Shown piece after piece: positions 23,037-60,900 of a DNA stretch of 64,000 nucleotides. Source of the stretch: an uncultured Clostridia bacterium. Its GTDB lineage: Bacteria; Bacillota; Clostridia; Christensenellales; Borkfalkiaceae. Every line of letters begins with the position of its first letter. The first letter of the stretch is position 1. Below the pieces are notes generated by a model, which worked only from the letters and a program-made list of their open reading frames with translations, did no database searches and was not told the DNA's origin. The stretch lies in assembly GCA_947628675.1 (NCBI GenBank), contig CANRAR010000006.1, forward strand, positions 1 through 64,000. Direction: 5' to 3'. A program made the position numbers and the translations under genes.

Positions 23037-26000
23037 TTACTGCTTATTGTCGGGGGGAAGTGCCTCGCTTTGGGGGCTCGTGGCGCCGCCCGTCGCCGTT
23101 GTGGGCTCGTTGAGCCATGTGATGGTGCCCTCTTCTTCGATCGTGATGTCGTAATACTCCGTCACGTCGTTCTCATTGCTGTCGAGCACCTTCACGTTTT
23201 CCTTTAACAGCGTGTTCTTCGCCGATACCTGCGCGAGGAGGAGTTGCCCCGTCATGGTGCATTGGAGATGGTGCCCCTCCAAAAGGGTATTGACGGTGAG
23301 GTAATACAGGGATTGGTCGCTCCCATTCACGTGGTAATCTCTCTCTACGTCGCTCCCCTCATCGGTGCGGCTCACCTTCATGTTGATGGTGTGGATGGTG
23401 AGTTTGCGCTGCGTCACATTGAGCACCGTTGCATCCTCTTTCGGGTCTTTGGGATTGCCGCCGACGAAGATGAAGCGGTTCTGCTTCGTGAGGTCAGTAT
23501 CCCCGTTGCTGACGGTGCAGATGCTGTTTGTCAAAACCCCCGCCGCGGTGAGCACGCCAGGCTCGGTGATGCCCGTGAACGTAATGTGGATCCAGTCCGT
23601 GGATAACCCGGCGGGAAGGGGGGCAAGGAAACGCACCTCGGATTGGGTGTGGATAAGCGGTTTGCCGTCGTACTGCTTATTGTGGGTATAGAGGAATACG
23701 TAGATGGCGGTCTGGACGCGGAGCCGTCCCAAATCGCCCACCTCTATTTCGTAGTTATCCTTTACGCTCACGCCGCCGTAGGTAGTCAGGACGATCTTGA
23801 CATCCCCATCATCGAAGGTATTTTCAACGTCGCCGAATACATACTTGCCGTCCTCGCCGAGGGTATCGGTGATATTCGTCACTTCCTTCCCCAGCACGGT
23901 GAGGCTGTGTCCCGAAAGCACCCCGCGGTCTCCGTTTCCGTCCGCACGTTCGTAATCGAAATCGGCGCTATGCGGTTGTCCGTCGTAACCCCACGTGCCG
24001 CCTTGGCTTGTGATGAGAACATGGCGCTTCGTGATGGTGATGGTGCCCCACGTCCAAGTGATGTCGTAGTTTCTTATGAGATCTTCGCCGGCGCCGGGTT
24101 CGCCATGATAGATGTGGTACTCCCCTTTCCACTCATTGTTGTACTTTATGTCTTTGGTCTCCATAAAGTTGATGAAGGAAGCGTAGGTCTCCGCGGTGAT
24201 TTCATGCCCGTATACGAGCCCCCGCTTGCCGTCTGCATCAAACTCTTCCGCGGTGTACCCCATCACGCTGTGGCTTTGACCGTCATAGACAAAACTTTCA
24301 CTACCCGTCGTAACATTCACGGGGCGCGGCGTAATGGTGATCGTGCCATTTACCCACGTGATCTCGTAATTTTCCGTCAAGTCATCGGCGCCTTCCCCGC
24401 CGTTCACGTTGCCGAGAATGCGCACAGAGGATACCGTATTATTTCCGTTTGCGGTATCCCAAACATTGGTATAGGTGGGGTAGTTCGCGGAGAGTATATG
24501 CCCCGCCAAGATCCCCCGCTCGCCGTCCTCCAAGACCTCCTCCGCGGTGTACTCCTCTACTTTGTGCCCTTGGCCGTCATAGACGAATTCGCCGTCGTGC
24601 GTCGTGATCGTCACGGGGCGCTTCGTCACCTCCAACGTGCCCCATTGATAGCGAAGTTCGTAATTTCCCGTGACCTCTTTCTCGCCCGATTGAATGGTGA
24701 TCCCTAACGTCATTTCATTGTTGAGCAACTGCACGGTGGTTATGCTGTTCCACTTCGTGTATTCCACCAAAAATTCGTGCCCTGTCACGAGCCCCGTGTG
24801 CCCCTCTTCGTTGAACGGCTCCGGCGTACATTCTTTCAGTTCGAACGCATTCCCGTCATAGACGTGGGTGTCGCTGGGCGTCGTAATCGTCAAAGGACGC
24901 GGTGTGACCGTAATTGTATTGTAGTAGTAATTGTCGAACTGGTAGTTTTGGGTGACATCCTCGCTACCCGCCATAACTTTTATGTTCGCATATTTCAATT
25001 CGTTGAGTTTACTTCCAACATCATGAAGAATCGGTGCAGTGACATCCGCCGAAACTTGATGCCCGCTTACAAGCCCTCTTTCATTTTCCGTGAATTTCTC
25101 CCATGTAAACGTTTCCACGGAAAAATCTGTATCATCATAAACGTGGCTACCCTCGTCCGATGTAAGAGCCACGGGTCGCGGTGTAATGGTAATGGTGCCC
25201 CACTCCCATGTGATGTCGTAATTTTCCGTGACATTTTGACCGCCTTGGAGGATGCGCGCGGAATTGATATCCAACTTGTTGTTTTCCGCTTTCGTCTCCC
25301 ACACGTTGGTGATAGAAGGGTAAGTCGTGGAGAGTGTGTGCCCGTCTACAAGCTTATAGTAGGGATTTCCCTCCTCCGTACCCCAACCTTGATCCCAATT
25401 CCAAGAGGTATAGGACATTACTTGACGCGGTTCGCCGTTGTAAACGTAGCTATGAGACCCCGTAAGAATCTTCACTTTGCGCCGCAGAATTTCCACCGTA
25501 CCGTATACCCGCGTGAGGTCGTAGTTCTTTTCGTAATCGACCGTCGAACCGTCCCCGCGGACGATTGCAAAACTCAACGGCTCGTTGATGTACTTGCCGT
25601 CCTTTTCTGCAAAGGACGCGTCGATGAACGCTTTATATTCGATTTTGAGGGTATGCCCGTCCGCAAGTCTCAAGAAGCCCTCTTCTTCCCAACCGTATTC
25701 CCAATTCCAATCGGTAGCGGAATCCGCTTTATGCGGTTCGCCGTCATACACGATGTCATCGAGCGACCCCGTGAGAATTTTCACTTTCCGCTTTGTCACC
25801 GTAATGGTGCCGTACTCATCGTGGATTTCGTAGTTGTCCGTCACGTTATCGCCGTTTTCATCGGAGATGTGATAGATGAGAACGTTGTCCTTCTCGTCCA
25901 CTTCGATGAGCGTCGTGCCCCCCGTGACGACCAGGTTTTGATTGAGTGCAAGCCCTACGTCTTTGCCATTCTCGGTATATGTGTACGCGTCCGCCCCCCA

Positions 26001-29000
26001 AAAAGAGTGTTCCGTATCGTCATAGACGAACTCTTTCGACTTTGACGTGATCGTGATAGGGCGGTATTTAATGGTGACTGTGCCGTAGGTGTAAGTGATT
26101 TCGTAGTTCTCCGTGACGGGTTTGCCGTTTTCGTCGAAAATGTCCACCACGGGCGTGTTTGTGTACGGATCGTTCTCGCCTTTTGCTTCCTTGAAGATGT
26201 AAATGCTGTCCTTATTCTCTGCGGTTTCCACGATGCGCCAAATCTGATTCGGTGCGCGGGTCGTCCCGTCGAGCAGTTCCAGCGTATCGATGTCGTAGCG
26301 GTGCTCTTGGCCGTTGTAGGTGAATACGGCCGTCTGCGTTTGGATATGCAGGGGGCGCAGGGTGATCTCGACCTCGCCGAAGACGACCGTCACGTCGTAA
26401 TTTTCCGTCACGTCGCCGTACACTTCCGCAACAATGCGCGCCGTGAAGGCAATTTCGTGCGTGCCGACGTTCGCCATTTTGTCCTTTTGGGTGTATTCGA
26501 TCTTCACCTCGTGCCCGTCGAGTTTGGGCGCGCCCTCGGGATAGACGACGGTGCAGTTTTCGTAGTCGGTCTCCCGCCACGAAATGCCGTCATAGACGTA
26601 CGGCCCGCGGTCGTGCGTGAGCACCGTGATGGGGCGGCGGTCGATCTTCACCGTGCCGTAGACGACGATTAAGGTATAATTTCTTGAAATATCCTCCCCG
26701 TTCGCATATACCTTGACCGTCATCTCGTTGGAATAGGGGGCTTCGCGCGCGTCGAGGAAGGAGGCGTAGCCTTCGAGCACGAGGCGGTGCGTCTCCGCCG
26801 CGAGTTGCTTTTCCGAGGTGACTTCCGCAGAGGCATAGGTGTGCTCTGTGCCGTCGTAGACGATCGCATCGCCCTTCGTCGTCACGGTGATTTCGCGCGG
26901 CGTGATCTCTACCCTGTTCGTGCGGACGTAGGTGACGTCGTAATTCTTCCCGCAGTCGTCGCCGCCCTCGGGGCCGATAAAGACCTCGTCAAAGTCGAGT
27001 TCGTTCACCCTGCTGTCCCACACGTTGACGATCTGCGGCGCGGTGACGTTCGCCTTATAGACGTGCCCGTCGGCGAGCCCTTCCACATCGTACCCCGCCT
27101 CGCTGTGCGCGGCGGCGTCGTATTCCCATGTGTTCCCGTGGGCAGTCACGGTGAGGGGGCGCAGGTCGATGACGATGCTCCCCGCCTTCCATGTGACATG
27201 ATAATTTTGGGTGACGGGAGTCCCCGCTCCGTCGCAAATCGCCTTGCCGTCGGGGTCGTTGTCGTAACTGCCCGCGTCGGTGAACGCCTCATAGGTGCCC
27301 GCGGCGTAGTGGTCCTCGGCGAGGGATCCGCTCTCCACGCTCCATTCTTCGGCGGTGTGCGCTTTCCCGTCGTACACCGCGTGATAGTCGCCCGCGCACA
27401 GGGTCACTTCGCGCCGCAGAATGACGACCGTCCCCCACTGCCAATGCACGGTATAGTTGGCCGTCACGTCCTCGCCGTTCGCGTCCTTGATCTTCACCGC
27501 GGTCTCGTCCAAAGAGTTCTCGTAGCCCGCCTCGTTCGCCTCCGTCCATTGCTTGAAGGCCGCCTCCACGGTGTGCCCGTCAACGAGTTGCGTCCCCACG
27601 GCGGTGTACGATGCCTTGCCGTGCTCTTTCGCATCGTATGTAACAGTGTCCGAACCCGTTGTTAAGGTCACCTCGCGCTTTTGTACCGTAAGTTCGCCGT
27701 AGGTCACAATGCGGATGATATAATTGCCCGTCAGGTTATCCGTCGCGTCCCTGTTTCGTGAAGGCGTCCCGTCCGACACAGTGAAGGCAAGTTCGTTGGA
27801 TACGGGCGTATCGCTGTAATTTGTGATGCTCGCAACAGCCGACGGAACCAGGGTGTGCCCCTCCACGGGAAGGTACCTTCCCTCCTGCGCGGGCAAGATC
27901 TCAAACCCTAACTCCGTATGCGCCTGCCCGTCATAGGGGAAGGACTGCGAGTTGGTCGTCACTTCCACGACGCGTTGGAGAATGTGCACCTTGCCGTAAA
28001 CTTTGTCAATATCGTAGTTGGCGCTGACATCGTCCTCCCCGTCGTATACCCTAATATCGGGTTCATTGCTCCGCTCGCCCGCGTCCTTCATGACGAGAAC
28101 ATCGAAAAATTTCAGTTCCTGTCCCGCCGCAAGGGCGCCTTCAAGGTCATACGCCTTTTCTTCTACACCGTAGCGATGCTCAATGCCGTCGTAGACGAAT
28201 TCCGCGCTGTGCGTCTCCACCTTAATGGCGAGTTTCGTCACGGTCACCGTGCCGTAATGCTCAATGATCTCGTAGTTCTCCGCCGAAATCGGGGTCTCGC
28301 CGTCTTGGATAGTGAACTGCGGCTCGTTCGGATATTCCTTCGCGTTCTGCACACAGAGCGTATCGGTGCGCGTGATGGTCTGCTTTCCCGCAAGCCCATC
28401 GGCGGTGAGGTCGTTATAGGTATGCTCCGTGCCGTCGTAGGGAATTTCATGCGACTCGGTCGAAAGCGTAAGTTCGCGCTTGTGAATGGTGACCGTGCCC
28501 GTTGTAACCGACACATCGTAGTTAGCCGTCACTTCATCGTTGCCCGCTCCTACGAAAATAGCGATCGTCGGGTTATTTATGTGGCCGTCCTCGTTCGCCT
28601 CCGTAAAGGCGTAATTGCCGCCCGTGAACCGAATTTCATGCTCCAAATCTACGAGAAGCCCCGCGTCGTCGCCCTCGTCGTTATATGTCAGCGTCGTTTC
28701 GTCATACTTATACTCTTTCCCGTCGTAGGTGAAGGTAGCCGACTGCGTCGTCACGTGTAGCGCGCGCTTGTGAATGATGACCGTGCCCGCTGTAACCGAC
28801 ACATCGTAGTTGCCCGTCACTTCATCGTCGCCCACGTAGATACCAATGATCGGCGCATTCTGGTAGCCTTCCTCATTCGCCTCCGTAAAGGCGTAATTGC
28901 CGCCCGTGAACCGAATTTCATGCCCCAAATCTACGAGAAGCCCCCCATCGTCGCCCTCGTCGGTTTTTAGCGTACCTACGCCATATTCGTGCTCCTTGCC

Positions 29001-29930
29001 GTCGTATGTAAATTCGTCGCCCTGCGTCGTCACGGTAAGTTCGCGCGGCGTCACCTTCAATGTGCCGTACTTGCGCGTCACTTTGTATTTGCCCGTCACG
29101 TCGTTGCCGTCCTCGTCGAGAATGTGGAAATGGCCGTCTCTTTCGGGGCAATTTTGTATCTCGCCGACGTCCGTCAAAGACGCAAAAATCGTGCCCTCTT
29201 CCTCGATCCGATGCCCCTCGGCGAGCCCGTCGCCCTCCAAAATGATCTCCTCGGCGGAGTGCGGCTTGCCATCGTATTCATAGGTCTCGGAGGCCGTCGT
29301 CACGGTGAGTTTCCGCGCGATCTCCGTCACGTCGCGGTCGGCGACGTTCACGCTGTAAGAGGCCGTCACGTCCTCCCCGTCCGCACTCAAAATGGTGACG
29401 GCGTCAAGGTCGGCGACGATGTTTACGATGTCGCCGCTCTTTTCCACCTTGGTATAATCGTTGACTTGCAACACGTCGTCATAGCACAAATTTGCCGTGA
29501 ACGAGGGCGTATTGCCGTAGACGATCGAACTATCCGCAACACTCACCACCGTCTCCATGGGGTCGATGGTGAAGGAGAAAACCTCTCCGCCCGGGCGGGA
29601 CGTGCCCACGATGCTCTTGCCCACGGCGCGGCACTCGTAAGTTCCCGCCGCACGGGGCTCCTTCTCGCTCCAAACCTCGGTGCCCTTCAGGCGGAACTCG
29701 AACCCCGCGCCGCCGAACACCGAACTCGCCTGCATGGAGAGCGGCTGGCCGTAGAAAAATTTCGTCTGCGGAACGGAGACGGCGGTCACCTGCCCCGCGA
29801 CGCCCATCATCGCGCCCGCGGCGGCGAGCAGCATGAGGAAGATGAGCAAAAAGAGCAAACGGAAGCGCCAGAAGCGCTCAAACCTGCGCTTCCGCTTTTC
29901 CAGCTTGTTCTTGTATGCTTCGTATAACAT
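23037..29930 (-). CDS. Giant (2297 aa) N-terminally membrane-anchored surface protein with ~20 MBG-like repeats
   Basis: N-terminal basic stretch + hydrophobic segment; ~21 recurrences of T(T)xSxxFxYDGxxHxxxxY...NYDVTxxxGTVxIxxR. No LPXTG seen. Confidence 0.85.
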
Positions 29931-30067: not shown

Positions 30068-31663
30068 TTACCAATCCCAATCTATAGTGAGTTCACCCCA
30101 TGTGGGGGTCACTTCGTAGTTATCCTTCATATCATCACCCGCGGCATTTGTGATGGTATATTTCTCTATGGTATTCGGGTGTGTGCCCAATTCCGTCGGC
30201 CATTCTCCGTACGAGAGAACGGTGAGGGTGTCGCCGTCCACGAAGTGCGCGGAACCTTCTACATACTCCCAGCCCTCGAGGACGTACGGCTCGCCGTCAT
30301 AAGTTTTATTGCCCGAAAGCGTCCTGATATTGATCTTGCGGGGCGCAATTGTCAGAGTCCTCGGCCTATAATCGATGGCAAATAGGTCTGTAACATCCTT
30401 TCCGAGCAGGGCTGTAACATTCTCTCCGAGTTGGCCTAAAACATCCTGTCCGAGTAGGTCTATAACTTCCCGTCCGGGAACGCTTACGCTTACGGTGAAC
30501 ACATTGGGGACGCTTCCCGATTCGTCCGGGTGCTTTTCGTTCTTGACGTATGTAAGGGTTTTGGTGTAAGTTACCTCATATACTAAGAACTGCTCTAATA
30601 TTTTCAGCTCGTCGGGCAACTCTCCGCATTTTTCCTTGACGATCGTGTACTTCTCTCCCACTGCGGAGTTGGAAGATTGCGGCATACCGTTGTATTCAAA
30701 CGTGTCGCTCCTTCCCACGATGTACAGCCTCGGACGGTGGCAGACGGTGCACGTGTTGGTCGTTTCGTCGAATGTATGGAAGTGATACCACACGCCCGGG
30801 TAGGCGTTGGGGTACTTCTCCCACAGATCGGGCGGCACATCGGCGGGGTCTATATTCTCCCACGGCATGACGACGGCGCCGACCGCCACAAGGGGAATGA
30901 GATACTCCCACGGCATCTGCCCCCATTCGAAGTCCTTGCCGAATTTGTTCCAGTCGATCCCCTCCAAAACCGAAGGGTCGTCGGCGAAGTTCTCCCAAGG
31001 CACATTTTCCCACGGGAAGTCGGCGGGAAGATCCTCGAACGGCACATCCTCCCACGGGACTTGCGACCAGTCGAAGTTCTCGGGCATTTCGTTCCACGGG
31101 AAATTGCCCCAGTCGAAGTTCTCGGGTGCACTGTTCATGAAGCCGCCCCAATCGAAGTTCTCGGGCACGTTTTCCGCAAAGTCTCCCCAATCGAAGCCCT
31201 CGGGCACGTTTTCGAGGAACTCTCCCCAATCGTAGTCGGACGGCGCCTCGCCGAGGAATTTTCCCCAGTCGAAGTTCTCGGGCACGTTGTCGAAGAAGTT
31301 CCCCCAATCGAAATTCTCGGGCAGGTTGCCGAGGTTCAAATCTTCCCACGGGAAGGCGTCGTTCAGCTTATCCCACGGGAGTTTGGAGAGGTCAAAGTCG
31401 TCGGGCATGGAATCCCACGGCAGTTGATCCCAGGGGAAGTCCGCGGCGAAGTCCTCCCAGTTGAAATTTTCAAAGTCAAAGGTGCTCCAATCGAAGTTAT
31501 CGAGGAACCTCTCCCAGAACGGGCGGGTGTCCCCGGGTTTCGCCGTCGGGTCGGTGAGCATATTGAAATTGCGGGCGCCGAGGAACGTCATAACGCTACC
31601 GCAGATGAGCAGCACTGCGGCCAACAAAACTCCGATGATACAGATGATTTTCTTGCGTATCAT
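30068..31663 (-). CDS. Exported/membrane-anchored protein with PENFDWGxF-type repeats and a C-terminal MBG-like module
   Basis: N-terminal TM (IICIIGVLLAAVLLICGSVMTFLG); repeated NVPENFDWGKFLGEAPSDYDWGEFLENVPEGFDWGDF; C-terminal IRTLSGNKTYDGEPY module. Confidence 0.8.
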   Translation of the reverse strand: MIRKKIICIIGVLLAAVLLICGSVMTFLGARNFNMLTDPTAKPGDTRPFWERFLDNFDWSTFDFENFNWEDFAADFPWDQLPWDSMPDDFDLSKLPWDKLNDAFPWEDLNLGNLPENFDWGNFFDNVPENFDWGKFLGEAPSDYDWGEFLENVPEGFDWGDFAENVPENFDWGGFMNSAPENFDWGNFPWNEMPENFDWSQVPWEDVPFEDLPADFPWENVPWENFADDPSVLEGIDWNKFGKDFEWGQMPWEYLIPLVAVGAVVMPWENIDPADVPPDLWEKYPNAYPGVWYHFHTFDETTNTCTVCHRPRLYIVGRSDTFEYNGMPQSSNSAVGEKYTIVKEKCGELPDELKILEQFLVYEVTYTKTLTYVKNEKHPDESGSVPNVFTVSVSVPGREVIDLLGQDVLGQLGENVTALLGKDVTDLFAIDYRPRTLTIAPRKINIRTLSGNKTYDGEPYVLEGWEYVEGSAHFVDGDTLTVLSYGEWPTELGTHPNTIEKYTITNAAGDDMKDNYEVTPTWGELTIDWDW

Positions 31664-31744: not shown

Positions 31745-33199
31745 TTACAATTTATATACGCGCGAAAGGTAACGGCGGCACTTGGGCATCTTGCCCTCGC
31801 CGAAGAGCGTTTCGAGGTACTTCGCCGTGTCTTCGAGATCCCCCTTCATGAGCGAGAGGTCCTTATAGGCGAGTTTGCGCAGCACCTTTTTGCAGAGAAT
31901 GTCGTCGAGCGCTTCGAGTTCATCCCCCCCGCAACTCACATACACGGAGATGTAACTCCGTATCTGCCGCATGATGCGGTTCCCGAAGGTGATTTGGAAG
32001 GTCTCCGTCAGATGCTCGTCGAGCGCCTTGAGCCTGCGCTCGTTGCGGCGCGTAATTTCGTATCCCCTCTGCGCGGTCTCCGCGAGCATCATAAAGTCGC
32101 GGTAGGAAACGGGCACCGTCGGCTCGGCTTCCTCCCCCGCAAAGGGCGTCGTGCGGCTGTCGAGATCGACGACCATCGCACGGTCGTACACCTTATCCGA
32201 GATGGAGAAGGTCGAATCGTCGTTGTTGGCAGTCCCGATGAACCACATATTCTCGGGCAGTTTTATCCGCCCGTCCTTGAGCCCCTCGGGGTCGTCGTCC
32301 CACTTATCCGTGACTACTTCGAGGTACCTGAGTTCGGGGTTGGGGATCTCGAGGAGGGACAAAAACTCCGCAAAGTAGTACTCCACGCGGGCGATGTTCA
32401 TCTCGTCGAGCACGGTGATGTAGATGCTCTCCGAACTGTTCGCCTCATACATTTTACGCAGGAGAATGGTCTCGTTGTACTTGCGGGTGAACTCGTTGTA
32501 GTAGCCGAGAAGGTCGCTCCGCTCCTTCCACATGGGCTGAACGGGGATGATGGTCGATGGATTGCCGATGAACTCCCCGAACGCATAGGTGAGCGAAGTT
32601 TTACCCGTGCCCGAGATACCCTGCAAAATGAGGATATGCGAAACGGTGAGGCTGGCTATAAATTCGCGGATCTGCGCCTCGGTGTAGTAGAGGTGCAGGT
32701 TGGTGGCGGCGAAGCGGCGGAATTTCTCGCACAGTTCGGCGAGCGACTGCACCGCGCCCGCCCGCACGGCTGCGCCGACGGGCTTCTCGTTGAGCGCGCT
32801 GAACCGGTGGGAATGCATCGCCTTCTCCTGTTCCTTCTCGTACTCGCGCTTCTCGGTATCCACGGCGATGCGCACCGTGTCCTCCCACGTCAGGCGGTAG
32901 TAGCGGAATTTCCGCCGCCGTACGCCGTTGATGACGAGGAAGATGATGAGGAGGAGCGGGATGGCGAGGATCCAGAAGATGACGATGGTGCGCACGAGTT
33001 CGTTGCTCAGGAACACCGTCTCTATGGTGGAGAAGACGGGCTGCAACATTTCGTCGCGCCACAGCATGACGAGCAAGGCGATAAAACTCCCCCCGATGAA
33101 TAAGATCGAGACGAGCAAGATGACGGAGAGGGCAAAGCGCCGCTTACTTCTTCGTCTTATCTTTTTCCGTGCCTGTTCCGGCGGTAGGTACTTGGCCAT
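31745..33199 (-). CDS. McrB-like AAA+ ATPase with N-terminal transmembrane helices
   Basis: Two N-terminal hydrophobic segments; Walker A GISGTGKTS, Walker B ITVLDEMN, sensor IGTANNDDSTFSISDKVYDRAM. Confidence 0.85.
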   Translation of the reverse strand: MAKYLPPEQARKKIRRRSKRRFALSVILLVSILFIGGSFIALLVMLWRDEMLQPVFSTIETVFLSNELVRTIVIFWILAIPLLLIIFLVINGVRRRKFRYYRLTWEDTVRIAVDTEKREYEKEQEKAMHSHRFSALNEKPVGAAVRAGAVQSLAELCEKFRRFAATNLHLYYTEAQIREFIASLTVSHILILQGISGTGKTSLTYAFGEFIGNPSTIIPVQPMWKERSDLLGYYNEFTRKYNETILLRKMYEANSSESIYITVLDEMNIARVEYYFAEFLSLLEIPNPELRYLEVVTDKWDDDPEGLKDGRIKLPENMWFIGTANNDDSTFSISDKVYDRAMVVDLDSRTTPFAGEEAEPTVPVSYRDFMMLAETAQRGYEITRRNERRLKALDEHLTETFQITFGNRIMRQIRSYISVYVSCGGDELEALDDILCKKVLRKLAYKDLSLMKGDLEDTAKYLETLFGEGKMPKCRRYLSRVYKL

Positions 33200-35405
33200 T
33201 ACGTTCTGTCTGCTCCTTCACGCCCGATGCCTTTGCAGTCGGTGCCTTCGGCTTGGTCTGGGTTGCCTGTTTTACGCCCTGCGCACTCGGTTTTGCGGGT
33301 GCGGCGGGCTTGGAAGCGGCGGGTGCCGCGGGTGTCTTGGGTGCGGCGGGTTTGGCCGCCTGTTCGGTGGGCTTTGCGGCGGGCTTGGCAGCCTGCTCGT
33401 TCGGTTTCGCCGCGGGCGCATTCGGTGCCGCGGGTTTCGCCGCCTGTTCGTTGGGTTTTGCGGCGGGCTTGGAAGCCTGCTCATTCGGTTTCGCCGCGGG
33501 CGCATTCGGTGCCGCAGGCTTCGCCGCCTGTTCATTGGGCTTTGCGGCGGGCTTGGAAGCCTGCTCGTTCGCTTTCGCCGCGGTCGCATTCGGTGCCGCG
33601 GGTTTGGGTTTGGGCGCGGGTTCGGGGCGCGGTCTGCGCGCCTGCACCTCTGCGCTCAACTTGCGGTATTCGTCGGATTTCTGCCCCTTCTTGCCGCGCA
33701 CCACGGCGCGGATGCTGTCGGAGAACTCCTTTTTGAGAATTTTCTTCACGTCCGTCCACTGTTTGCGGACGAGCCTCCCCAGCGTCTCGAACTCGTGTTC
33801 GAGGGCGTTGAAGCCCGCTTCCGTCGTAAAGTCGTCGGCGGCGGTGAGCAGCCCGTGCTCGCTGCGGACGGCGGTGAGCCGCGCCATGTACACGTCGCGC
33901 TCGTGCTTGACGCTCTCGAGCGTCTCCTCGGCGTCCTTGCGCTTGGCCTCGCCCTCCTCCATCTTGAGGCGGTTCTCGTTGAGGGTCTCCTCGCACGATT
34001 GCTTCATGCGGGCGATCTCCTCCTTGGCTCTCTCGTCGGCGGCGGCGAGGTCGGCAATGCGCTTCTCCTCGGCGTCGGCGAGCGCCTTCTCGTGCTCGCG
34101 TTTGAGGGCGGCCTCGGCCTCCTGCCGTTCGCGCACCATCTCCTCGATCTTGCGGCGGTGCTCCTCCTCGATGCGGGAGAGCGTATCCTTGAGTTTGGAA
34201 TTCTCGTCGTTGAGCCCGTCGATCTCCGTTTGCAGGGCGCGCGCCTCCATCTCCATGCGGTCGATGGTGCCGTTCAAGTTCTCGATCTCGACGCGAGCCT
34301 GTTGCAGCAGGATGCTGTCCTGTTCGAGGGCGGCGTTGCGCTCTTCGAGCAGGAGCATATACTCCTCCATGCCCTTGCCCGTCTCTTCGATGCGCTTTTT
34401 GAGTTGGCGGATGGCCTCCACGAGGGCGCGTTGTTTGGCCTCTGCGCGGCGGGCTTCCTCCTTGTCGAACTCCTCTTGCAGGCGGTTCTCCACGCCCAGC
34501 CCGTGTTCGTACACGAGGAAGGAGGCGAGGAGCGCGGGCACGGCGAGTTCCTTTGCTGTCTCCAAGGGGACGGGGTCGAGGCTCTTTTCCTCGCGCTGGA
34601 TGGTATAGCCGTCCCTGTCGTAGGCGAGCAGGAACTCATAGAGCGTCACGGCCTCCTTGAAGTTCTTATCCATGCGGAGGACGTTGGTCTTGGTGATCTT
34701 GGATTTGATCTTATCGACGCGGGAGACCTCCACCATGAGCGGCGTCCGAAGGAAGAACGCCACGCTCTGCTGGATCTTCTCGATGCGGTCGAGGTAACTT
34801 GCGCAGGCGGGGTCGGCGTCGGCGGCGAACACGTCGTCCTGCTCGTCGGTGAACGTGAGTTCGTACGAGAGCCGCCGCGTCCCCGTCACCACCTTCTTGT
34901 GGGAAGCGAGTTCGCCGCGGTAGAGTTTATACGCGCGCATGATGGCTTCGTACCTGACGGATACGAAATCGCGGACGCGGCAGAGGAGCAGATACAAGAA
35001 CCTGTTCTCGTACACCGTGTAGTCGTTGAGGCGCTCCACCGTGTACAGTTTATCGGGGATGATGTCGCCCTTCTGCTCGGGCTGGCGGGAGATAAAGTCG
35101 CTGTGGCGGGAGAGGTGCTGCACCGATTCGCGGGAGATGTGCTTGACCTTTTCGATGGGCTGCACCTCGCCGTTGGAGCGGATGAACTGCCGATCCTCTT
35201 CGATGGCTCTGCCGATGAACACGATCCCGCGCTCGATGGCGGCGACCCAGTCCTCCTCGACCTTACACACATTGTGCACGACCGTGATCTTATCGGGCTC
35301 CCTCGCGTTGGCGAAATTGCCCTCCATGGCGGTCACACCGCGGTTTTCATCTATTTCGCTTGTAAGATCGCGGAATGCGCGATATAGGAGGTCGGTCTGA
35401 TCCAT
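33144..35405 (-). CDS. DUF2357/McrC-N-like domain + long coiled coil + Ala/Pro/Lys tandem repeats
   Basis: EEDWVAAIERGIVFIGRAI..HISRESVQHLSRHSDFI..DKLYTVERLNDYTVYENRFLYLLLCRVRDF resembles DUF2357; heptad-rich 290-520; repeats AAKPNEQASKPAAKPNEQAAKPAAPNAP. Confidence 0.75.
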   Translation of the reverse strand: MDQTDLLYRAFRDLTSEIDENRGVTAMEGNFANAREPDKITVVHNVCKVEEDWVAAIERGIVFIGRAIEEDRQFIRSNGEVQPIEKVKHISRESVQHLSRHSDFISRQPEQKGDIIPDKLYTVERLNDYTVYENRFLYLLLCRVRDFVSVRYEAIMRAYKLYRGELASHKKVVTGTRRLSYELTFTDEQDDVFAADADPACASYLDRIEKIQQSVAFFLRTPLMVEVSRVDKIKSKITKTNVLRMDKNFKEAVTLYEFLLAYDRDGYTIQREEKSLDPVPLETAKELAVPALLASFLVYEHGLGVENRLQEEFDKEEARRAEAKQRALVEAIRQLKKRIEETGKGMEEYMLLLEERNAALEQDSILLQQARVEIENLNGTIDRMEMEARALQTEIDGLNDENSKLKDTLSRIEEEHRRKIEEMVRERQEAEAALKREHEKALADAEEKRIADLAAADERAKEEIARMKQSCEETLNENRLKMEEGEAKRKDAEETLESVKHERDVYMARLTAVRSEHGLLTAADDFTTEAGFNALEHEFETLGRLVRKQWTDVKKILKKEFSDSIRAVVRGKKGQKSDEYRKLSAEVQARRPRPEPAPKPKPAAPNATAAKANEQASKPAAKPNEQAAKPAAPNAPAAKPNEQASKPAAKPNEQAAKPAAPNAPAAKPNEQAAKPAAKPTEQAAKPAAPKTPAAPAASKPAAPAKPSAQGVKQATQTKPKAPTAKASGVKEQTERNGQVPTAGTGTEKDKTKK
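33289..33600 (-). repeat. In-gene tandem repeat encoding (A/P)AAKPNEQA(S/A)KPAAP units
   Basis: Alternating ~42/84-bp units visible in DNA and protein. Confidence 0.85.
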
Positions 35406-35414
35406 GCGGCCTCC

Positions 35415-36716
35415 TTACGAATTCCGCGCGATGCGGCGCACCGTCTTTAAGCACCGTCTCATGCGTTCCTGTCCGAAGAGTTCGTTGAACATCTCGCACA
35501 GCGCGTCGAGTTCGGAGACGCGGTAGGTGAGGTTCTGCGTCTCCAACTTGCGGAGCACCTTCTTGGCGAGCATATCGTCGAGCGCATCCAGTTCCTCGCC
35601 GCCGCAGGCGACGTACACGGGCAGGTACACCGAGATCTGCTTCATGATACGGTTACCGAAGGAGATGCGGTAATTTTCGGTGAGGAAGGCGTCGATCTTG
35701 TGCAGTTTATCCAGCGTTTCCTCCGCGATCTGATAGCCGTTCACGGCGTCCTGCGCGAGCCGCATGAACGTATCCGCGGCGACGGGCACCGACCGCTTCA
35801 CGGGCGTCGTGAAGGGTTCCGACTTGGCGTCGATGTTGAGGATCATCGCACGGTCATACACCTTATCCGAGATGGCGAACGTCGAGTCGTCGTTGTTGGC
35901 GGTGCCGATAAACCACATATTCTCGGGCAGGCGCACCCTGCCGTTCTCGAGTTCCACGGGGTCGTCGTCCCAGCGGTCGGATACGACTTCGAGTTTTCTC
36001 GCCTCCGCCTTGGGAATTTCGAGGAGGGACAAAAACTCCGCGAAGTAATATTCCACACGGGCGATGTTCATCTCGTCGAGGATGGTCACGTAGATGTCCC
36101 TGCGCCCGTTGGCCTCGTAAATTTTTTGCAGGAGCAGCGTCTCGTTGAACCGCTTGGTGAACTCGTTGTAATAGCCTAAAAGGTCGCTCCTCTCCTTCCA
36201 CATGGGCTGGACGGGAATGACGGTCGAGGGATTGCCGAGGAATTCCCCGAAGGCATAGGCGAGCGACGTTTTACCGGTACCGGACATACCTTGCAGGATG
36301 ATGATGTGCGAGACGGCGAGCCCCGCGATGAATTCGCGGATGGTATCTATATCGTAATATAGTTTGAGCGTCCCCGCGGCGTAGTTGCGGAAGGCGTTGC
36401 ACAGCCCCTTCAAGGTGATGTTCTCCGCATACGGCTTGGGCGGGCGCTTGGAGGCGCGGTCGGCGGCGCGTTCGGCGTCGATGCGCTTCAACATATCGAA
36501 GCGGGAGGTCTTCTTCTCCCCCTTCTCCACGGCCTCCTCCGTCTTTTCCACGCTCTTTTCCACCCTCCTCGAGAGCGAGGAGAAGCGGTGCTCGTTCACC
36601 ATGACGGAGATGACGATGATGAGCATGAGCAGCACGACGGCGGCAATGTATATGACGATAAAGATCGGCTTTGTGAGGAGATCCCAGATTGCTTGGATGT
36701 CTATGAGTAAATTCAT
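35415..36716 (-). CDS. McrB-like AAA+ ATPase with N-terminal transmembrane helix (paralogue of 31745-33199)
   Basis: FIVIYIAAVVLLMLIIVISVMV TM; Walker A GMSGTGKTS; VTILDEMNIARVEYYFAEFLSLLE; FIGTANNDDSTFAISDKVYDRAM. Confidence 0.85.
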   Translation of the reverse strand: MNLLIDIQAIWDLLTKPIFIVIYIAAVVLLMLIIVISVMVNEHRFSSLSRRVEKSVEKTEEAVEKGEKKTSRFDMLKRIDAERAADRASKRPPKPYAENITLKGLCNAFRNYAAGTLKLYYDIDTIREFIAGLAVSHIIILQGMSGTGKTSLAYAFGEFLGNPSTVIPVQPMWKERSDLLGYYNEFTKRFNETLLLQKIYEANGRRDIYVTILDEMNIARVEYYFAEFLSLLEIPKAEARKLEVVSDRWDDDPVELENGRVRLPENMWFIGTANNDDSTFAISDKVYDRAMILNIDAKSEPFTTPVKRSVPVAADTFMRLAQDAVNGYQIAEETLDKLHKIDAFLTENYRISFGNRIMKQISVYLPVYVACGGEELDALDDMLAKKVLRKLETQNLTYRVSELDALCEMFNELFGQERMRRCLKTVRRIARNS

Positions 36717-39700
36717 CGCTTTATCGTCCCATCGCCCCGTGCGTCCAAGAACTCCTTGCAGAGTTCGGTATTCTTGCCGAAGATCTCGGCGAGCGTGTCT
36801 GTGAGCTTTTCGCCGCACAGATCGTTGTTCCAGACTTCAAACATCCACGGAAGCAGTTCACACGCGAGCGCGCCGTCTATGGCGTGTTCGTCGCTCTCGC
36901 CGCAGGCGGAGAGCACGGCGGCGTGAAGTTCCGTCTTGACCCACACGAGGTTGCCCACGTGCGCCGAGCGGCACCGTTCGTCGAGTTGATCGACGGTCTT
37001 CCACGCGTCCTCGCCGAGGGGATAGTCGTCGCGTACGGCGCGCTTCATCGCGGCGAAGCGGTCGAAGCCCACCGATTGCACCACGCTCTTGGGGTCGGCG
37101 GGCGGGCACTCGTTGCAGCGCGGCAGGAGCACGGCTGCGGCCTCTAAAATAGCGGGCGGAATTTTTCCGAGGTCTCCCGCCCCCACTTCCACGACGACGC
37201 GGAGGTTGGGCGGAATGATGCGCTCTTCCCCGCCGGGGAGGGGCACGGCCGCCCGCTTGCGGGAGAGCGTCTCCGCAAACGTGCCCAGCGTCTGCCCGAG
37301 GCGGGTCGCCTCCGCATGGCGCAGAATGGCGATATGCAGGAAGGCATTGTCCTGCGCCGCGTCGTCGAGCGCGGCGGTGAGTTGGGTCTGCTTGAACACG
37401 CGTTCGGTCTGCTTCCATTGGGTGAACAGATCGTCGTTCTGCGCGTACTGCTCGGCGTTGTCGATGTAGGGCTTCTTGCCGAAGTATTCGGCGACGGCTC
37501 CCAAAAGCGCCGCCCCCATGCCCTCGGGCACGATGAGAAGTTGCGTCGCGGTGAGCGCCGCAAACGCGCTCTTCATCGTCTTCTCGTCGGCGTCGAACCC
37601 GCGCTCCTTCACGTAGAGCGAGCCGTCCCGCAACAGTTCCGCGAAGGTGAGGTCCTTATCGAAGAACTGCATGGGCTCTTCGGGTGCCGCCTCCTCGATG
37701 GGCTCCTTCTCCTGTTTCTCGGCGGCGACGCGGAACGCGTCCTCGAACTCCGCCTCGGGGAGCATGGTCTCTTCGCGCTCCTGCGCGAAGTAATATTTCT
37801 GCCAGCGGTTGCCGCCCGCCTTGGCCTTCACGAGCACGTGCTCGGTGATGGCTGCGGTCGCCGCCATGATGGGCGCGCCGACGGCGAGGCAGGAGACGAT
37901 GGTCATCACGAGCCGCTCGTCCTCCACGTCCTTCTCCGTCATGAGGAGGATGCCGAGGATGAGGCAGGCAACGAGCAGCGGCAGGCACACGATGAGCGCC
38001 CCCGTCCTCACGTGCGCGAGGCGGCGGCGGTTGAAACTGCCGAGGAGCGGGATGAGCGCGAGCATCAGAACGGCAATGCCGTAGATGCCCCACTTCACGG
38101 CGTCCTCGTCGAAGGTGAAGAAGAGCGAATAGTCCAGCGCGTAGGTGAACACGAACACGGTGAGGAGCAGGAAGAAGAGCACGGCGGCGATGGGGAACAC
38201 GAAGAGCGCGGCGCGCCGCACATGGCGGAGCGGGGCTGGCACGTTGTCCTTCTCCTTCGTCCCCACGCGGTTCTCGAGGTTCTGGCTCTCGTCGCGGACA
38301 TACGTATCGGGGAAATAGTCCGCAGGCTCCACGCCCGAGGGCTCGCGCGTGACGCCCTCCAGCGTCCGCTTGCCCTGCAACTTCACGGTGCTCGCATTGG
38401 AGCATACGTAGATGCGGTACGTGCCCGCCTCCACGTCGTCGCTCATCGTGAGCAGGTCGTACGTCGCAAAGTCGTCCGTCGTAAGCGTCACGGTCGCCCG
38501 CTTGCTCTCGCCCGGTTTGAGGGCGAACTTATACACGGCTTTCAGGCGCTTGGCGGGGGCGAACACGGCGTCCGTCGGGGTGCCCACGTAAATTTGCGCC
38601 ACTTCATACCCGGGGCGGCTGCCCGTGTTCTTCACGGTGAAGGAGACCTTATTGCCCTGGATGGAGAGCCCCGAGTAGCTGAATTTGGTATAGGAGAGGC
38701 CGAAGCCGAAGGGATAGCGCACTTCCTCGTGCGCGGTATCGTAGCGGAGATACCCCACAAAGCCGCCCACGCGCACTCTGCCCTCGTCGCGGGCGCCCAA
38801 AAGCGCCCTGAAATACGCGTCCCCGCCGTCGTACGCCGTCCGCGTGAGCCGTCCCGCGGGGTCGGTATCGCCCGCGAGCACCCGCGCCAGCGCCTCCGCC
38901 GCGTAGGGGTTATCGGCGGGTGCAAGCAGGAGCGCGTCGAGCACCCCGTCGAAGGAGAGGTCGGCGGGCATATCGCCGCACACGATGCCCACGAGTTTCT
39001 TGCCCGTCTTTTTGAGGGCGCGCAGCAGCGCGATGCGGTTGGCGGGCATGGAGAGGTGCCGCCCCGTCATATCCGGCCAGAGGAACACAAGCACGACGTC
39101 CGCCGCGCCCGCCGTGCGCACCGCCTCGGGGATGAGCGGATCGCTCCGCTCCGTCCCGCGGTCATATCCGCGCGCGCGTCCCTTCACCTTGAACTTGCCC
39201 TCGAGCGCCGTGAGGTCGTTATACGCCTCCCCCACGACGGCGACATTCGTCCCCTTCTCGAGGGGAAGGATGCGGTTGTTTTTGAGGAGCACGATGCTCG
39301 CCGCGGCGAGCGCCTTGCGCGCCGTATCCCCCGCCGCGATCTCCGCGGGCACGAGGGAGGAAAGGCGCAGGGCGAAGTCGGCGACTTCGTCGGCAGCCTC
39401 GTTGAGTTTGGCTTCGTCGAGGGCGCTCCCGTCGCGGATGGCGTCCTCGAGGTCATGCTGGGAGATGCTCCCCTCGTCGCGGTATTTTTTGAGTTGCACG
39501 TACCGCCGCGCCGCCCGTTCGAGGGGAAGCGCCGCGCCGCCGAGCGAGACCTTTCCGCGCAGGAGGGAGAGCGACGCCGAGTTGGCGGCAACGCCGTCGC
39601 CGATGGCAAACGTATCGCCGAGGTACCCGCCCAACACGTCGGAAAAGAGGGTGCGGTTGGTATCGGGATAGCCGCTCCCGATGCGGTTGGGCGTGAGCAT

Positions 39701-40204
39701 CACCGCATCGCACGGAGAAATCTGCGCCGCCTTCAGGAAGGGCTTCACGAAGAGGTCGTGCACCGCCACCGTATCCTCGCGGCGGTCGAGATAGGCAACG
39801 TCCTTTTCGTCGAGCGAGAGGCGCGAAAGCCCCACCGCCATGCCCGCTTCGTGCACGGCGCCCGCAATGGCGCCGCCGATGAGCCCGTTGAGTCCCGCGT
39901 CCTCCGAGAGGCCGGGCACGTAGGGGTTCGCCGCCGTCTTCAAATCGGGCGAAACGAAGAGCCGTGCCCCCGAAGCCGCCGCCTCGCCCGCAAGTTCCTT
40001 GGTCATGCGGCCGATGAGCGCGGGGTCGAAGGAGCGCGCCGCCGATGCGTAGGAAACGCCCTTCTCCCTTGCGAGGTCGTCCAAGAAGACGCGCCCCACG
40101 GCGGGAACGCCCGCCTGTTTGAGGCCGTCGTCCGCGAGCCCCGAGGTCACGAGCGCCACTTTGCGGAGCGGATCGAGTTTTCCGAGAATGTCGTTATGCT
40201 TCAT
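36713..40204 (-). CDS. GH3-like domain (plus Fn3-like) fused to four TM helices and a degenerate McrB-like AAA+ domain
   Basis: GH3 signatures (AAASIVLLKNNRILPLEKG; EEVRYPFGFGLSYTKFSYSGL); four hydrophobic segments ~res 680-830; C terminus aligns with neighbouring AAA+ proteins but lacks Walker A/B residues. Confidence 0.8.
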   Translation of the reverse strand: MKHNDILGKLDPLRKVALVTSGLADDGLKQAGVPAVGRVFLDDLAREKGVSYASAARSFDPALIGRMTKELAGEAAASGARLFVSPDLKTAANPYVPGLSEDAGLNGLIGGAIAGAVHEAGMAVGLSRLSLDEKDVAYLDRREDTVAVHDLFVKPFLKAAQISPCDAVMLTPNRIGSGYPDTNRTLFSDVLGGYLGDTFAIGDGVAANSASLSLLRGKVSLGGAALPLERAARRYVQLKKYRDEGSISQHDLEDAIRDGSALDEAKLNEAADEVADFALRLSSLVPAEIAAGDTARKALAAASIVLLKNNRILPLEKGTNVAVVGEAYNDLTALEGKFKVKGRARGYDRGTERSDPLIPEAVRTAGAADVVLVFLWPDMTGRHLSMPANRIALLRALKKTGKKLVGIVCGDMPADLSFDGVLDALLLAPADNPYAAEALARVLAGDTDPAGRLTRTAYDGGDAYFRALLGARDEGRVRVGGFVGYLRYDTAHEEVRYPFGFGLSYTKFSYSGLSIQGNKVSFTVKNTGSRPGYEVAQIYVGTPTDAVFAPAKRLKAVYKFALKPGESKRATVTLTTDDFATYDLLTMSDDVEAGTYRIYVCSNASTVKLQGKRTLEGVTREPSGVEPADYFPDTYVRDESQNLENRVGTKEKDNVPAPLRHVRRAALFVFPIAAVLFFLLLTVFVFTYALDYSLFFTFDEDAVKWGIYGIAVLMLALIPLLGSFNRRRLAHVRTGALIVCLPLLVACLILGILLMTEKDVEDERLVMTIVSCLAVGAPIMAATAAITEHVLVKAKAGGNRWQKYYFAQEREETMLPEAEFEDAFRVAAEKQEKEPIEEAAPEEPMQFFDKDLTFAELLRDGSLYVKERGFDADEKTMKSAFAALTATQLLIVPEGMGAALLGAVAEYFGKKPYIDNAEQYAQNDDLFTQWKQTERVFKQTQLTAALDDAAQDNAFLHIAILRHAEATRLGQTLGTFAETLSRKRAAVPLPGGEERIIPPNLRVVVEVGAGDLGKIPPAILEAAAVLLPRCNECPPADPKSVVQSVGFDRFAAMKRAVRDDYPLGEDAWKTVDQLDERCRSAHVGNLVWVKTELHAAVLSACGESDEHAIDGALACELLPWMFEVWNNDLCGEKLTDTLAEIFGKNTELCKEFLDARGDGTIKR

Positions 40205-40790
40205 AGTCCTGCCAGTCGCTCCTCACGATCTGCGCCTCCGCCGAGGGGGAGACGCGCTCTATGGTATCGAAAAATCCAAACCGCCATGCGAGCGCGGCGC
40301 CCAGCGCCACGAGCCCGAACACGGCGACACACGCAATTACCACGAACCACTTGCGCCGCTTGGAGACGGTGTACGTCTCGCGGGGAACAAAGGTATATTT
40401 CTGTTCGGTGGCCATGGGCGTAAAGCCGTAGTGCAGTTCCACGCCGTTCTCGCCGAACGCATACTCGTACTCGTCGGAGAAGACGGACTTCACCTCGATC
40501 TCCACCGAGGCGCACTCGAAGTCCACGCCCACGTCGTTTACGGCGAACTCCTTGCCGCTCTCGGCATAGAGGCCGGTGCGCTCCACGAGGCGGTCGGAGA
40601 TGAGGCTGCCGTTCGCGTCCTTTTCCGCGATGCGGAAGCGGATGCCCGTCACGCAGATCTCGCTCGCGTTGAAGAAGCGGAGCGCCGCGCGCCGTTCGCC
40701 GACGCCGAGGATCACATAGCGCGAGGGATACACGGGGAAGCCGCCCTCGAAGGGCAGTCTCACCGCAACCGTTTGCTTCTGTACGTTCAC
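40194..40790 (-). CDS. Beta-rich soluble domain with C-terminal TM helix; GTG start
   Basis: SD AAAGGAGGCGAATC-GTG; overlaps the stop of the upstream gene (GTGA); TM WFVVIACVAVFGLVALGAALAW. Confidence 0.75.
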   Translation of the reverse strand: MNVQKQTVAVRLPFEGGFPVYPSRYVILGVGERRAALRFFNASEICVTGIRFRIAEKDANGSLISDRLVERTGLYAESGKEFAVNDVGVDFECASVEIEVKSVFSDEYEYAFGENGVELHYGFTPMATEQKYTFVPRETYTVSKRRKWFVVIACVAVFGLVALGAALAWRFGFFDTIERVSPSAEAQIVRSDWQDYEA

Positions 40791-41503
40791 GATTCGCCTC
40801 CTTTGCGCTTCATGAAGAAGCGCGCCAGGGCGACTGCCGCCGTGAACACCACCGCGGCGAGCGCGGTGAGCCCCAAGAACTCCGCCCAAATTTCAATGGG
40901 AATGCCGAGTGTCGCGGTGAACGAATCCATGTAGCGCAGGTACGCCGTCACGCCGATCCAAAGCAGGAGGTCGGCGAGGATGGCGACGGACGCGCAGAGC
41001 AGCGCGAGCCACAGCGCGAAGCGCACGTTGAAGCGGGTGCGCTCGGCGCGGATGGGCGTATCGTCCACGCAGAGGATGCGCAGCGTCACATAGTCGGTAT
41101 TCTGGGGGAGGTAGGTGAGGTGGGTCTCCAAACCGTCGTTGAACTTCTCCTTGACGCGGAGAATGTTGATGATGTTGTTGGAGGCGTTGTAGACCACGAG
41201 TTCGTACTTGACGAACGCGATGAGGCGGTTCCACTCCCCGCGGAAATAGAGTTCCCCTCTCTCCCTGACGATGCGGTACGACTTGATGTACTGCCGCACG
41301 GAGGGCGCAGGTTCATACAGAAGAACGGCGCCGCGCTCATCCATGAGGCGCCCCACCGTCCTGTCTCTTGCCGGGATCGTGGCGGCGTGCATCTTGAGCA
41401 TGATGCGCGGAAGGAGCACCACGGTACAGACGACCACGGCGCCGAGCCCCACCACCAGCCATACGATCCAAAATATCATTGTACCAATCGAATCTGAACC
41501 CAT
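40787..41503 (-). CDS. Membrane protein, first gene of the AAA+/DUF2357/GH3/MBG operon
   Basis: N-terminal TM IFWIVWLVVGLGAVVVCTVVLL and C-terminal TMs; start MGSDSIG directly downstream of promoter. Confidence 0.75.
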   Translation of the reverse strand: MGSDSIGTMIFWIVWLVVGLGAVVVCTVVLLPRIMLKMHAATIPARDRTVGRLMDERGAVLLYEPAPSVRQYIKSYRIVRERGELYFRGEWNRLIAFVKYELVVYNASNNIINILRVKEKFNDGLETHLTYLPQNTDYVTLRILCVDDTPIRAERTRFNVRFALWLALLCASVAILADLLLWIGVTAYLRYMDSFTATLGIPIEIWAEFLGLTALAAVVFTAAVALARFFMKRKGGES

Positions 41504-57965: not shown

Positions 57966-60900
57966 TTAAGTTTCCTCGGGAGCGGGAGACGTTTGTTGCT
58001 CCGTGAGGGTGAGGCCGCCGAGACCGGAGGTCTGGGTGATCGTCGCCGTGTACGTCTTTCCCTCGGAGGGAGAATGGATCGTCCAGACGTTCTTCCCCTC
58101 GGCCTTTTCAAACGTAGCGTCGTCGATGTACTTCTCCTGCGAGAACCTCAAAATGTACTCCACCGTGAAATCTGCTTCGTCGCCCGTGTAGAGGAAGCGC
58201 AACGTGTACTTCGCGTCGCTCGTGTTGACTTCGCCGTACTTGTAGTCCTTTTCCTCCTTCGTTGCACTTTCGATGAAGCCATCCATTCCCTTTTGGATCT
58301 TGTACACGTAGGCCTCATAGACGTTGGTCTCGGTAGCATGGTCGAAGCGGTTGCGTACGAACGCCGCCGTATCGCCATCGAGCGCACCCATGAAGATGAC
58401 CTGCTCCTCGGCAGAACTCTGCGGTGCGGTGAGCCCGACGAGATCCTTTTGGTTGACGCCCAAGTAGTGGGTGCCCGCATCCCAAAGTTGCGTGAACGTG
58501 ATGTCGATCCCGTCGATGGGAATGGTCTTTTCGACGACGATGGAGTGGATGATGAAGCGCTTGACCTGCTGATCCTTTCCACCGGGCTTATCTGCCTTAA
58601 TGGTGGCATCGTCTATCCAGAAGCGGAGGACGTACGTCTTCTCGTCGTTGCTCGTGAGGTTGATGGCGCGCACGTTGCCAAGCGTGAACTCGGCTTCCGC
58701 CTCCGTGCGGATGGCATCGAGCGAGCCCTCGTAGTGGAGCGTTTCTCCCTTGCTATCCTTGATGCCGAGCGTAATTGTGAGTGCGTTGCCGTCGCCCTTG
58801 GGTGCAAGGTTGAGTGCGCCGATGTGACCCGAGGTGATGTTGACGGAGTCGCTACCTTCCATGGGCTCCTTGGCACTCTTATTTGCGTAGCGGACGTAGT
58901 TGCCGACCTCGTGCGGTTCGACGGTGAAGGTGTTGCCCGTGGCCGCGCCGCTGTAAGTGAGCGTGAGGGCGTACTCTTCCACCTGCGAATCCATGCCGCT
59001 CGCAAGGTAGGTGAGCTTGATCATGAGCGTCCACACGGGCCCGCCCTCTATCTGCGGAACATTTTCGTAGGAGACGACGACGCGGTAGCCCGAGTACGAC
59101 GACGAACCGCTTTCAAACTTCGCCGCCACCGCGAAGGTCGCGCCATCGGGCGTGAATTTGAGCGTGATCGTATCGTGATACACGTCATTCGTGAAAGTGA
59201 GCTCTTCGCCCGCCGTGTACGCCAAGTATTGCTTTTCCTGATAGGTATAGGGGTTGCCCTTCGTCGGGAGCGTGACGGTCTGCTCCTGCTTTCTGAACGT
59301 GACGGTGTAATTATCATACTCATTCATCGTCTGCTTGTAGAGCGTGACGCTCTTTTCCGCGGCGGGATCGTCCGAGACGATGTAGAAGTATTCCACGCCC
59401 TCGATGATGAAGCGCGCGCCCGTAAGCACGACGGAGGAGAAGTCGGCCGCATAGTAGGCGGCGGCGTAATCCCTATCGTAGTGGAGGAATTCGTAGCCGT
59501 TGCCGTCCTTCATTTTGAACACGTCGGTCTTGCCGTCCGATTCAAATGCGCCGTAGCCATTCTCCGCATCGAAGATGGTGTAGGTACCGATGATGACGTC
59601 GCCATACTTATTGATATAGCGCGCGTCACCGTAGCCGTTGAGCACGAGCACCGTCCAATCGTCGTTCACGAGGACGAGGTTCGCATCGGGATCCATCGCC
59701 TCATAGACGTAGACGGTATCCATGCCCGACGTCTTGGAAGAGATGCGGAAGGTGAATTCACTGTTACCATAACCGTCATCTCCCTTGCCGGAGAAGAAGT
59801 ATTCCGACGTACCGCGCGCCTCGTAGGTGCCGCTCCAGAGCACGTTTTCGATGGGGCCGTTGAGCGAATAAATGGTGGCGGAAGAGACGCCGTCGAGCCG
59901 CAATACCTGATTCGAGATGACGGAGCCGTACACATAGAAGGCGTAGTCGCCATAGGCAAGGGTGAGCGGGATGAGTTCATCGTCATCGGCGATGTTGAAG
60001 TAGTAATCTTCGCTGATGCTCCTGCCATTCTGTATGAGCGCCCAGAAATGCACCATGGCGCCATCCGCATCGTTGTTAAAGCTGTGGTCGTCCGCGCCTT
60101 TGCTTACATTGCCGACGTACATATTGCCCATGAAGGTTTCGCCGAGTTCGTTGGTGTAGGTCGCAAGAGGATAGCCGGGGTAGCCGATGCTCTCGATGGT
60201 GCCGCCGCCGCGCACCGTAAAGGTGCCCACGCGGTGCGGGATGAGTTCTTGGTACAGGGGAATGGTTTCCACATAGCCCGTTGTGGTATCTACGACGGAA
60301 TAGGCGGGGTCGAGAAGGTGGGTCTTGGGAGCCTCATCTTCAAACGTAATGGTATACTCCATGAAGCCGCCCTGCAAATAGGGACCCGCCACGAACCGCG
60401 ACGTACGCGCATAGGTGCCCCGCGTGACCTCGGTCGTATCCGTCATGTAATCGTACTCATAGAGGAAGGCGGTACCGTTGCCGTCGAATACGAGATACAC
60501 GCTATCCCGAATGTTCTGGTTGTTATCCAAGAAATACCAATAGCCCGCATCGCCGCTGTCGTAATAGTCGAACACCTCTACAACGGAGCCCTCCGAGACG
60601 CGGAAGATGAAATCCCGGTTGAGCGTGTGGAAGTAGATGAGCCTGCCCTCGCCGTTGTTGCCCGTGAGGGTCTCGTTGCCGATGGTAAATTCGATGGTGC
60701 CCTCGTAGGAGGCGCTGCCGTTGGTATAGGTGTAGGTGCCGTAGCCATCGCTCGTGAAGTTGGAATAGGTAAGCTCATCGTGCTTGAACACGTAGGTGAG
60801 GATGTTGTCGTCGCCCGAAACCTGATTCTCGTCATCGATACGGAAGGTGAAATTATCGTAGCCCTCGAATTCGGAATTTGCCATATCGGAGAGTTTCGCC

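Follow-up and report, generated by a model that had tools for sequence, protein, structure and literature searches.

McrBC type IV restriction systems and CoCoNuT/CoCoPALM combine a McrB-like AAA+ protein with a DUF2357/McrC-N-like coiled-coil partner, and the NxxD motif is a feature of McrB GTPases (PMC11090510). The gene cluster analysed here has both components, i.e., AAA+ proteins with an NxxD motif and McrB as the best PDB match, and a coiled-coil DUF2357 protein; on these features, it looks McrBC-derived. It differs in that the AAA proteins carry membrane helices, the partners are MBG-like proteins predicted to be extracellular, and no nuclease family (PD-(D/E)xK included) was found in any of the 12 members of the DUF2357-partner family. 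As no nuclease was found, we did not file the cluster as McrBC.

The PFNA cluster of bifidobacteria encodes a MoxR AAA+ protein, a DUF58 protein, a transglutaminase, and a giant FN3 surface protein (PMC8430577). PFNA and MoxR-DUF58-transglutaminase loci resemble our cluster in that gut bacteria encode, side by side, a MoxR/McrB-like AAA+ ATPase, a membrane protein of the transglutaminase-like kind, and a giant surface protein of the Ig/FN3-like kind, which is a likeness of layout and not membership. Here, DUF2357 stands for DUF58 and MBG for FN3, there are two AAA+ genes and a GH3 fusion, no kinase was seen in the cluster, and the loci with the tryptophan-rich (W) array described below (W types) are without the transglutaminase.

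For the W protein itself, MBG-domain bacterial surface proteins (Pfam MBG/MBG_2/YDG) share the C-terminal MBG-like modules, the membrane anchor, and the predicted extracellular topology. Nothing in those families corresponds to the W array, and the MBG scores here stay under the curated cut-offs. The choline- and glucan-binding repeats of Gram-positive surface proteins are likewise short, aromatic-rich, arranged in tandem, and located outside the cell, the last being a prediction in our case. Their units have about 20 residues, and unit length and sequence differ from those of the W array.

The gene lies in a window of 64,000 nucleotides, which is the whole stretch of DNA that was analysed. 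It is an unbroken reading frame of 531 aa on the minus strand (30068..31663), supported by orthologs, and all window coordinates below refer to this strand. It encodes a membrane anchor, the W array, an HxH/CxxC segment, and two MBG-like modules. The initial annotation had placed the feature at 30650-31580, which does span the array and the CxxC segment but takes in only the start of the first MBG-like module.

Residues 1-37 (31553..31663) form the N-terminal signal anchor, one hydrophobic helix preceded by basic residues (helix 2-37 in the model). A basic N-terminus and a single hydrophobic helix, followed by MBG-like modules, predict an N-in/C-out topology. Hence, the W array is predicted to be extracellular, and the earlier topology assignment is supported as a prediction.

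By repeat analysis, the W array covers residues 47-295 (30779..31525, approximately 250 residues) and contains 24 W, 23% D/E, 3% K/R, and 23% W+F+Y. Its most regular part is a 13-aa block, xxPENFDWGxFxx, at residues 115-199 (31067..31321), which is visible in the translation and as a 39-bp period with 5.7 copies in TRF. The tryptophans of this block are at positions 120/133/146/159/172/185, then at 199. Downstream of the array, comparison with relatives defines an H-x-H ... CxxC segment, HFHTFDETTNTCTVCH, at residues 294-309 (30737..30784). The same comparison indicates that it is a remnant of a longer H/CxxC module, which is whole in relatives. The CxxC described by the initial annotation is present after the array, but a haem-type (c-type cytochrome) reading of CxxCH was rejected because H follows the last CxxC in only 8 of 26 family members.

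Two MBG-like modules end the protein, not one as first described, and the first of them is interrupted by a tandem insert. The first covers approximately residues 311-440 (30344..30733; family alignment, model strands, and TRF) and the second approximately residues 441-531 (30068..30343; Pfam MBG_2 and the match to a neighbouring protein), with approximate boundaries in both cases. The second module scores 16.3 bits with Pfam MBG_2, below the curated cut-off of 25, and is clearly similar to modules of the giant MBG-like protein encoded next to it (E 9.9e-6). In relatives, the MBG-like modules match YDG at 17-21 bits (cut-off 25). The insert in the first module is 8 aa (24 bp) long and repeated 3.7 times at 30383-30470 (TRF), with the sequence VIDLLGQDVLGQLGENVTALLGKDVTDLF.

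The tandem aromatic-acidic PENFDWGxF repeat was borne out: the quoted peptide is exact in the translation, and residue identity at lag 13 is 7.8 SD over shuffles of the window protein, with further peaks at 5, 14, 26, and 39. The 39-bp units in the window DNA show just 70% matches, and the copies are thus old and diverged. The 13-aa repeat is the central block of the array, with W-x-x-Phi-P steps (Phi = L/I/V/F) on either side. We searched 101 congeneric genomes for orthologs, which were found with differing repeat numbers, and added 29 named loci from GTDB contigs. All sequences are MAGs, in which repeat arrays may have been collapsed or interrupted where a contig ends. In G586, for example, what looks like a second W protein is most likely a single array divided between two contig ends.

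Orthologs at the 29 named loci share the consensus [FILV]-[P/D]-W-x-x-[LIVF]-P. The residue before W is P in 59% and D in 23%, and the one further back is F/I/V/L in 79%; L/V/I/F/M occupies +3 in 93% and P occupies +4 in 78%. The spacing is quantised, as W-W gaps of 5, 8, 9, 13, or 14 account for 996 of 1135 gaps, and 240 are expected from shuffling. In all complete orthologs, the array sits between the anchor and the MBG-like modules. The shortest array has 80 residues and the longest 913, W counts run from 10 to 113, and the part C-terminal to the array is nearly constant (189-273 residues where no contig end truncates the copy). Over this 11-fold length range, the aromatic fraction is held at 0.17-0.25 and the acidic fraction at 0.15-0.32. 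One array (L072) has expanded recently and contains 22.5 copies of 39 bp at 82% and 3.8 copies of 96 bp at 96%; the latter value indicates that array turnover is ongoing.

The frameshift that could have argued against translation was looked for and not seen in the reading frame. The frame is kept at about 30 loci and pN/pS between units is 0.15-0.91, i.e., below 1 in every tested array, which rules out an antisense or out-of-frame artefact; pN/pS is just a rough guide here because the units are near saturation at silent sites. We conclude that the W array is a real, new, and testable module of gut Clostridia, predicted to lie on the cell surface.

The view that the repeat falls outside recognised families held up. 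No Pfam, NCBIfam, PHROG, or PADLOC model matches the W array, a PDB sequence search with it gave no match, and the Pfam choline- and glucan-binding repeat models do not match the window protein. Foldseek against PDB returned nothing convincing (best E 0.09 and 0.14, helical solenoids with weak alignments and TM <0.3), and the same applies to the viral BFVD (best E 0.005 with TM 0.17). A phage or mobile origin was rejected as searches of phages, plasmids, and viral contigs did not return the repeat. A literature search yielded nothing on the W repeat or on clusters of MBG and AAA proteins.

The conserved gene order is TM - TM - GH3 fusion - AAA2 - DUF2357 - AAA1 - slot - MBG protein wherever the contig extends far enough, with the W protein in the slot. 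The initial annotation had noted neither this slot nor the cluster, nor the exchange with a transglutaminase described below. The first cluster gene encodes a membrane protein (40787..41500) and is followed by another membrane protein gene (40194..40790), both recognised by conserved position. The fusion protein (36713..40204), identified by its domains and conserved position, joins a GH3 C-terminal domain to Fn3-like and membrane segments; the GH3 N-terminal catalytic family was unmatched in it, and a signal peptide was not evident. The GH3 match is absent upstream in at least five divergent W-type loci.

AAA2 (35415..36818) is a paralog of AAA1, recognised by its AAA domain and a PADLOC match. 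The DUF2357 (McrC N-terminal-like) coiled-coil protein (33144..35405) was identified by a Pfam-type domain search over 12 family members, 9 of which contain the domain (best 8e-8); the window copy scores 21.0 bits (cut-off 23.3). Repeats of the form KPNEQ(A/S)xKPAA make up its C-terminal tail (33144-33700). AAA1 (31745..33199), a membrane-anchored McrB-like AAA+ protein, matches AAA_5, PADLOC PDC-M26A, and McrB in PDB. The AAA1 family profile has McrB 6hz4 as its best PDB match (E 4.5e-4), and N324/D327 of the NxxD motif are invariant. The AAA proteins of the cluster have hydrophobic segments at the N-terminus and reach just 23-28 bits with the whole-protein McrB model, whose cut-off is 637.

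Downstream of the slot, the next cluster gene encodes a giant MBG-like protein of 2297 aa (23037..29930), assigned by module similarity and conserved position. Among W types, this second MBG protein has about 680 to over 2600 aa, and by eye, no link between its length and array length was seen. The cluster is widespread, with 507 AAA1-like stretches in GTDB contigs, and suggests that McrB/DUF2357 pairs have been reused at the membrane. The match of the AAA proteins to PDC-M26A, a PADLOC candidate, raised the question of anti-phage defence, for which the rest of the cluster gives no support.

In sister lineages, the slot protein has Transglut_core in its middle (E 8.5e-21 to 3.6e-24). The C-terminal MBG pair is common to both types of slot protein (in BLAST, E is as low as 1e-39 and the alignment reaches the protein end), and many members of both share the anchor motif (K/R)RSKxxYIxG. 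Among the classified slot proteins, 29 have a W array without transglutaminase and 26 others a transglutaminase, and never both. A Transglut_core search of the window's whole genome found none; 23 of the 29 other W-type genomes are also without it, and the remaining 6 show weaker matches, all of them on other contigs. In a tree of the slot-adjacent AAA proteins, all 30 W-type loci form one clade (100/99). Hence, the exclusivity reflects few evolutionary events and not 29 independent ones. The long-branched AAA2 outgroup falls among the transglutaminase types, which suggests that the enzyme type is older and that the exchange probably ran from enzyme to array.

Between anchor and enzyme, the transglutaminase types have a linker that is Gly-rich, DxNxDxD-rich, an MBG tandem, or W-rich. 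The W-rich form occurs in L085 and L081 and reads LPEDWLDNLPDQMPGDWPDEF. This variety marks the stretch as a linker or stalk position. Some slot proteins, such as those of L080 (11438-16723) and L082 (11375-16657), have five transglutaminase-like domains in tandem. Another (L111, 11019-13796) has a long, calcium-loop-like DxNxDxD linker tract between its MBG modules and the transglutaminase.

For a length-variable array at a linker position, bounded by the anchor on one side and the MBG-like modules on the other, a stalk is the simplest reading. We thus propose, with a probability of about one half, that the W array is an extracellular stalk, i.e., a length-variable, semi-rigid rod which displays the MBG-like modules from the membrane anchor; we infer both its extracellular side and its display function. 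In this model, each W-x-x-Phi-P or W-x-x-Phi-P-(D/E)-(D/N)-F-(P/D) unit (Phi = L/I/V/F) would form one short helical turn, with W, Phi at +3, and F at -2 packing on neighbouring units. Stacked units would give a thin, semi-rigid, strongly acidic rod, which would begin just past the anchor helix, end at the H/CxxC and MBG-like modules, and keep these off the membrane. Tandem duplication of 39-, 42-, or 96-bp units would make the rod longer or shorter, so that species would differ in reach but not in unit grammar.

The W array would have arisen once, within the conserved cluster that encodes two McrB-like AAA+ proteins at the membrane together with their DUF2357 partner, and taken over the place that a linker and a transglutaminase-like domain hold in relatives. 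With the transglutaminase replaced, the W-type protein would have lost an enzymatic step (putative cross-linking or cleavage) and either retained display and binding or become specialised for them. Repeat stalks are common on bacterial surfaces; new here are the undescribed unit, the strict spacing rule, the extreme length turnover, and the clean exchange with transglutaminase. As both protein ends and the neighbours are kept, W-type and enzyme-type relatives are a natural experiment on the purpose of the slot.

The structure prediction called for by the initial annotation gave regular short helices with a mean pLDDT of 76-81. For the window protein (AlphaFold2, 21 sequences), mean pLDDT is 81, with short helices along the array at mostly 66-90. 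In the model of one ortholog array (L058), helices of ~6 residues and loops of 7 alternate regularly over about 28 units (mean pLDDT 76, pTM 0.50). With a pTM of 0.5 and shallow alignments, the regular prediction from a regular sequence may be partly artefact. The strict W/Phi/P spacing together with the model confidence favours a folded rod over a disordered chain. That no known solenoid matches the models in Foldseek counts against the stalk fold. If the fold is real, a compact and tunable rod joins the list of repeat architectures. Tentatively, and as a proposal we would rather doubt than assert, the W-x-x-Phi-P grammar may define a new solenoid-like rod with interchangeable 5-, 9-, and 13/14-residue units, and this rod would have taken the place of an enzyme in a McrBC-derived surface machine that gut Clostridia hold at the membrane and that has no nuclease.

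The main rival to the stalk reading, unlikely in our estimate, is a multivalent binding surface. Exposed aromatics in an acidic setting would bind glycans, peptidoglycan/teichoic acid, or a host or plant-fibre polymer, and unit number would set avidity. W-rich choline- or glucan-binding repeats do bind through aromatic residues, W is retained in each unit, the aromatic and acidic fractions are held over the whole length range, and a GH3-type protein is encoded in the cluster. Similarity to choline- or glucan-binding repeats is, however, absent, and the regular hydrophobic positions (W, +3, -2) resemble a packed core and not exposed platforms. Isolate names with Lapin, taken as rabbit gut, occur at 28 of 29 named W-type loci and at 4 of 26 transglutaminase-type loci, which speaks for this reading; with a single clade and a single sampling campaign behind it, the host bias may be a sampling effect. 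A spacer needs no W in each unit, and yet 10-113 are kept, which suggests that the W side chains also act beyond reach. Thus, the stalk possibly also binds something multivalently.

In another reading, which we consider improbable, the array would be disordered and sticky, a low-complexity segment whose aromatic stickers and acidic spacers self-associate or condense on the surface. The low-complexity, acidic, aromatic, Pro-rich composition and the fast length turnover would fit, but disordered segments usually have pLDDT <50, most of the array reaches 70-90, and the strict quantised spacing holds everywhere. It is very improbable that the array is a docking ladder for, or a substrate of, the giant MBG protein or the AAA/DUF2357 machine instead of a stalk: the gene order is conserved, but the AAA and DUF2357 proteins are predicted to be cytoplasmic, on the other side of the membrane from the predicted position of the array, and the second MBG protein does not track array length.

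In profile searches, the array turned up in two genera of the window's family, its own and one more, and in three other families of the same order. Among 390 genomes sampled across the class, matches occurred only in the window's genome and one congener; among 399 sampled across the phylum, only in the window's genome, apart from one match running through stop codons. Matches in G423 and G1218 were discarded as they run through stop codons, and one in G002 as a composition match (VEEVPVEETP). A scan of GTDB contigs with the W protein as the query gave no match; the AAA1 alignment succeeded as the query. Elsewhere in the window, a putative lipoprotein of 1934 aa is encoded at 57966-63770.
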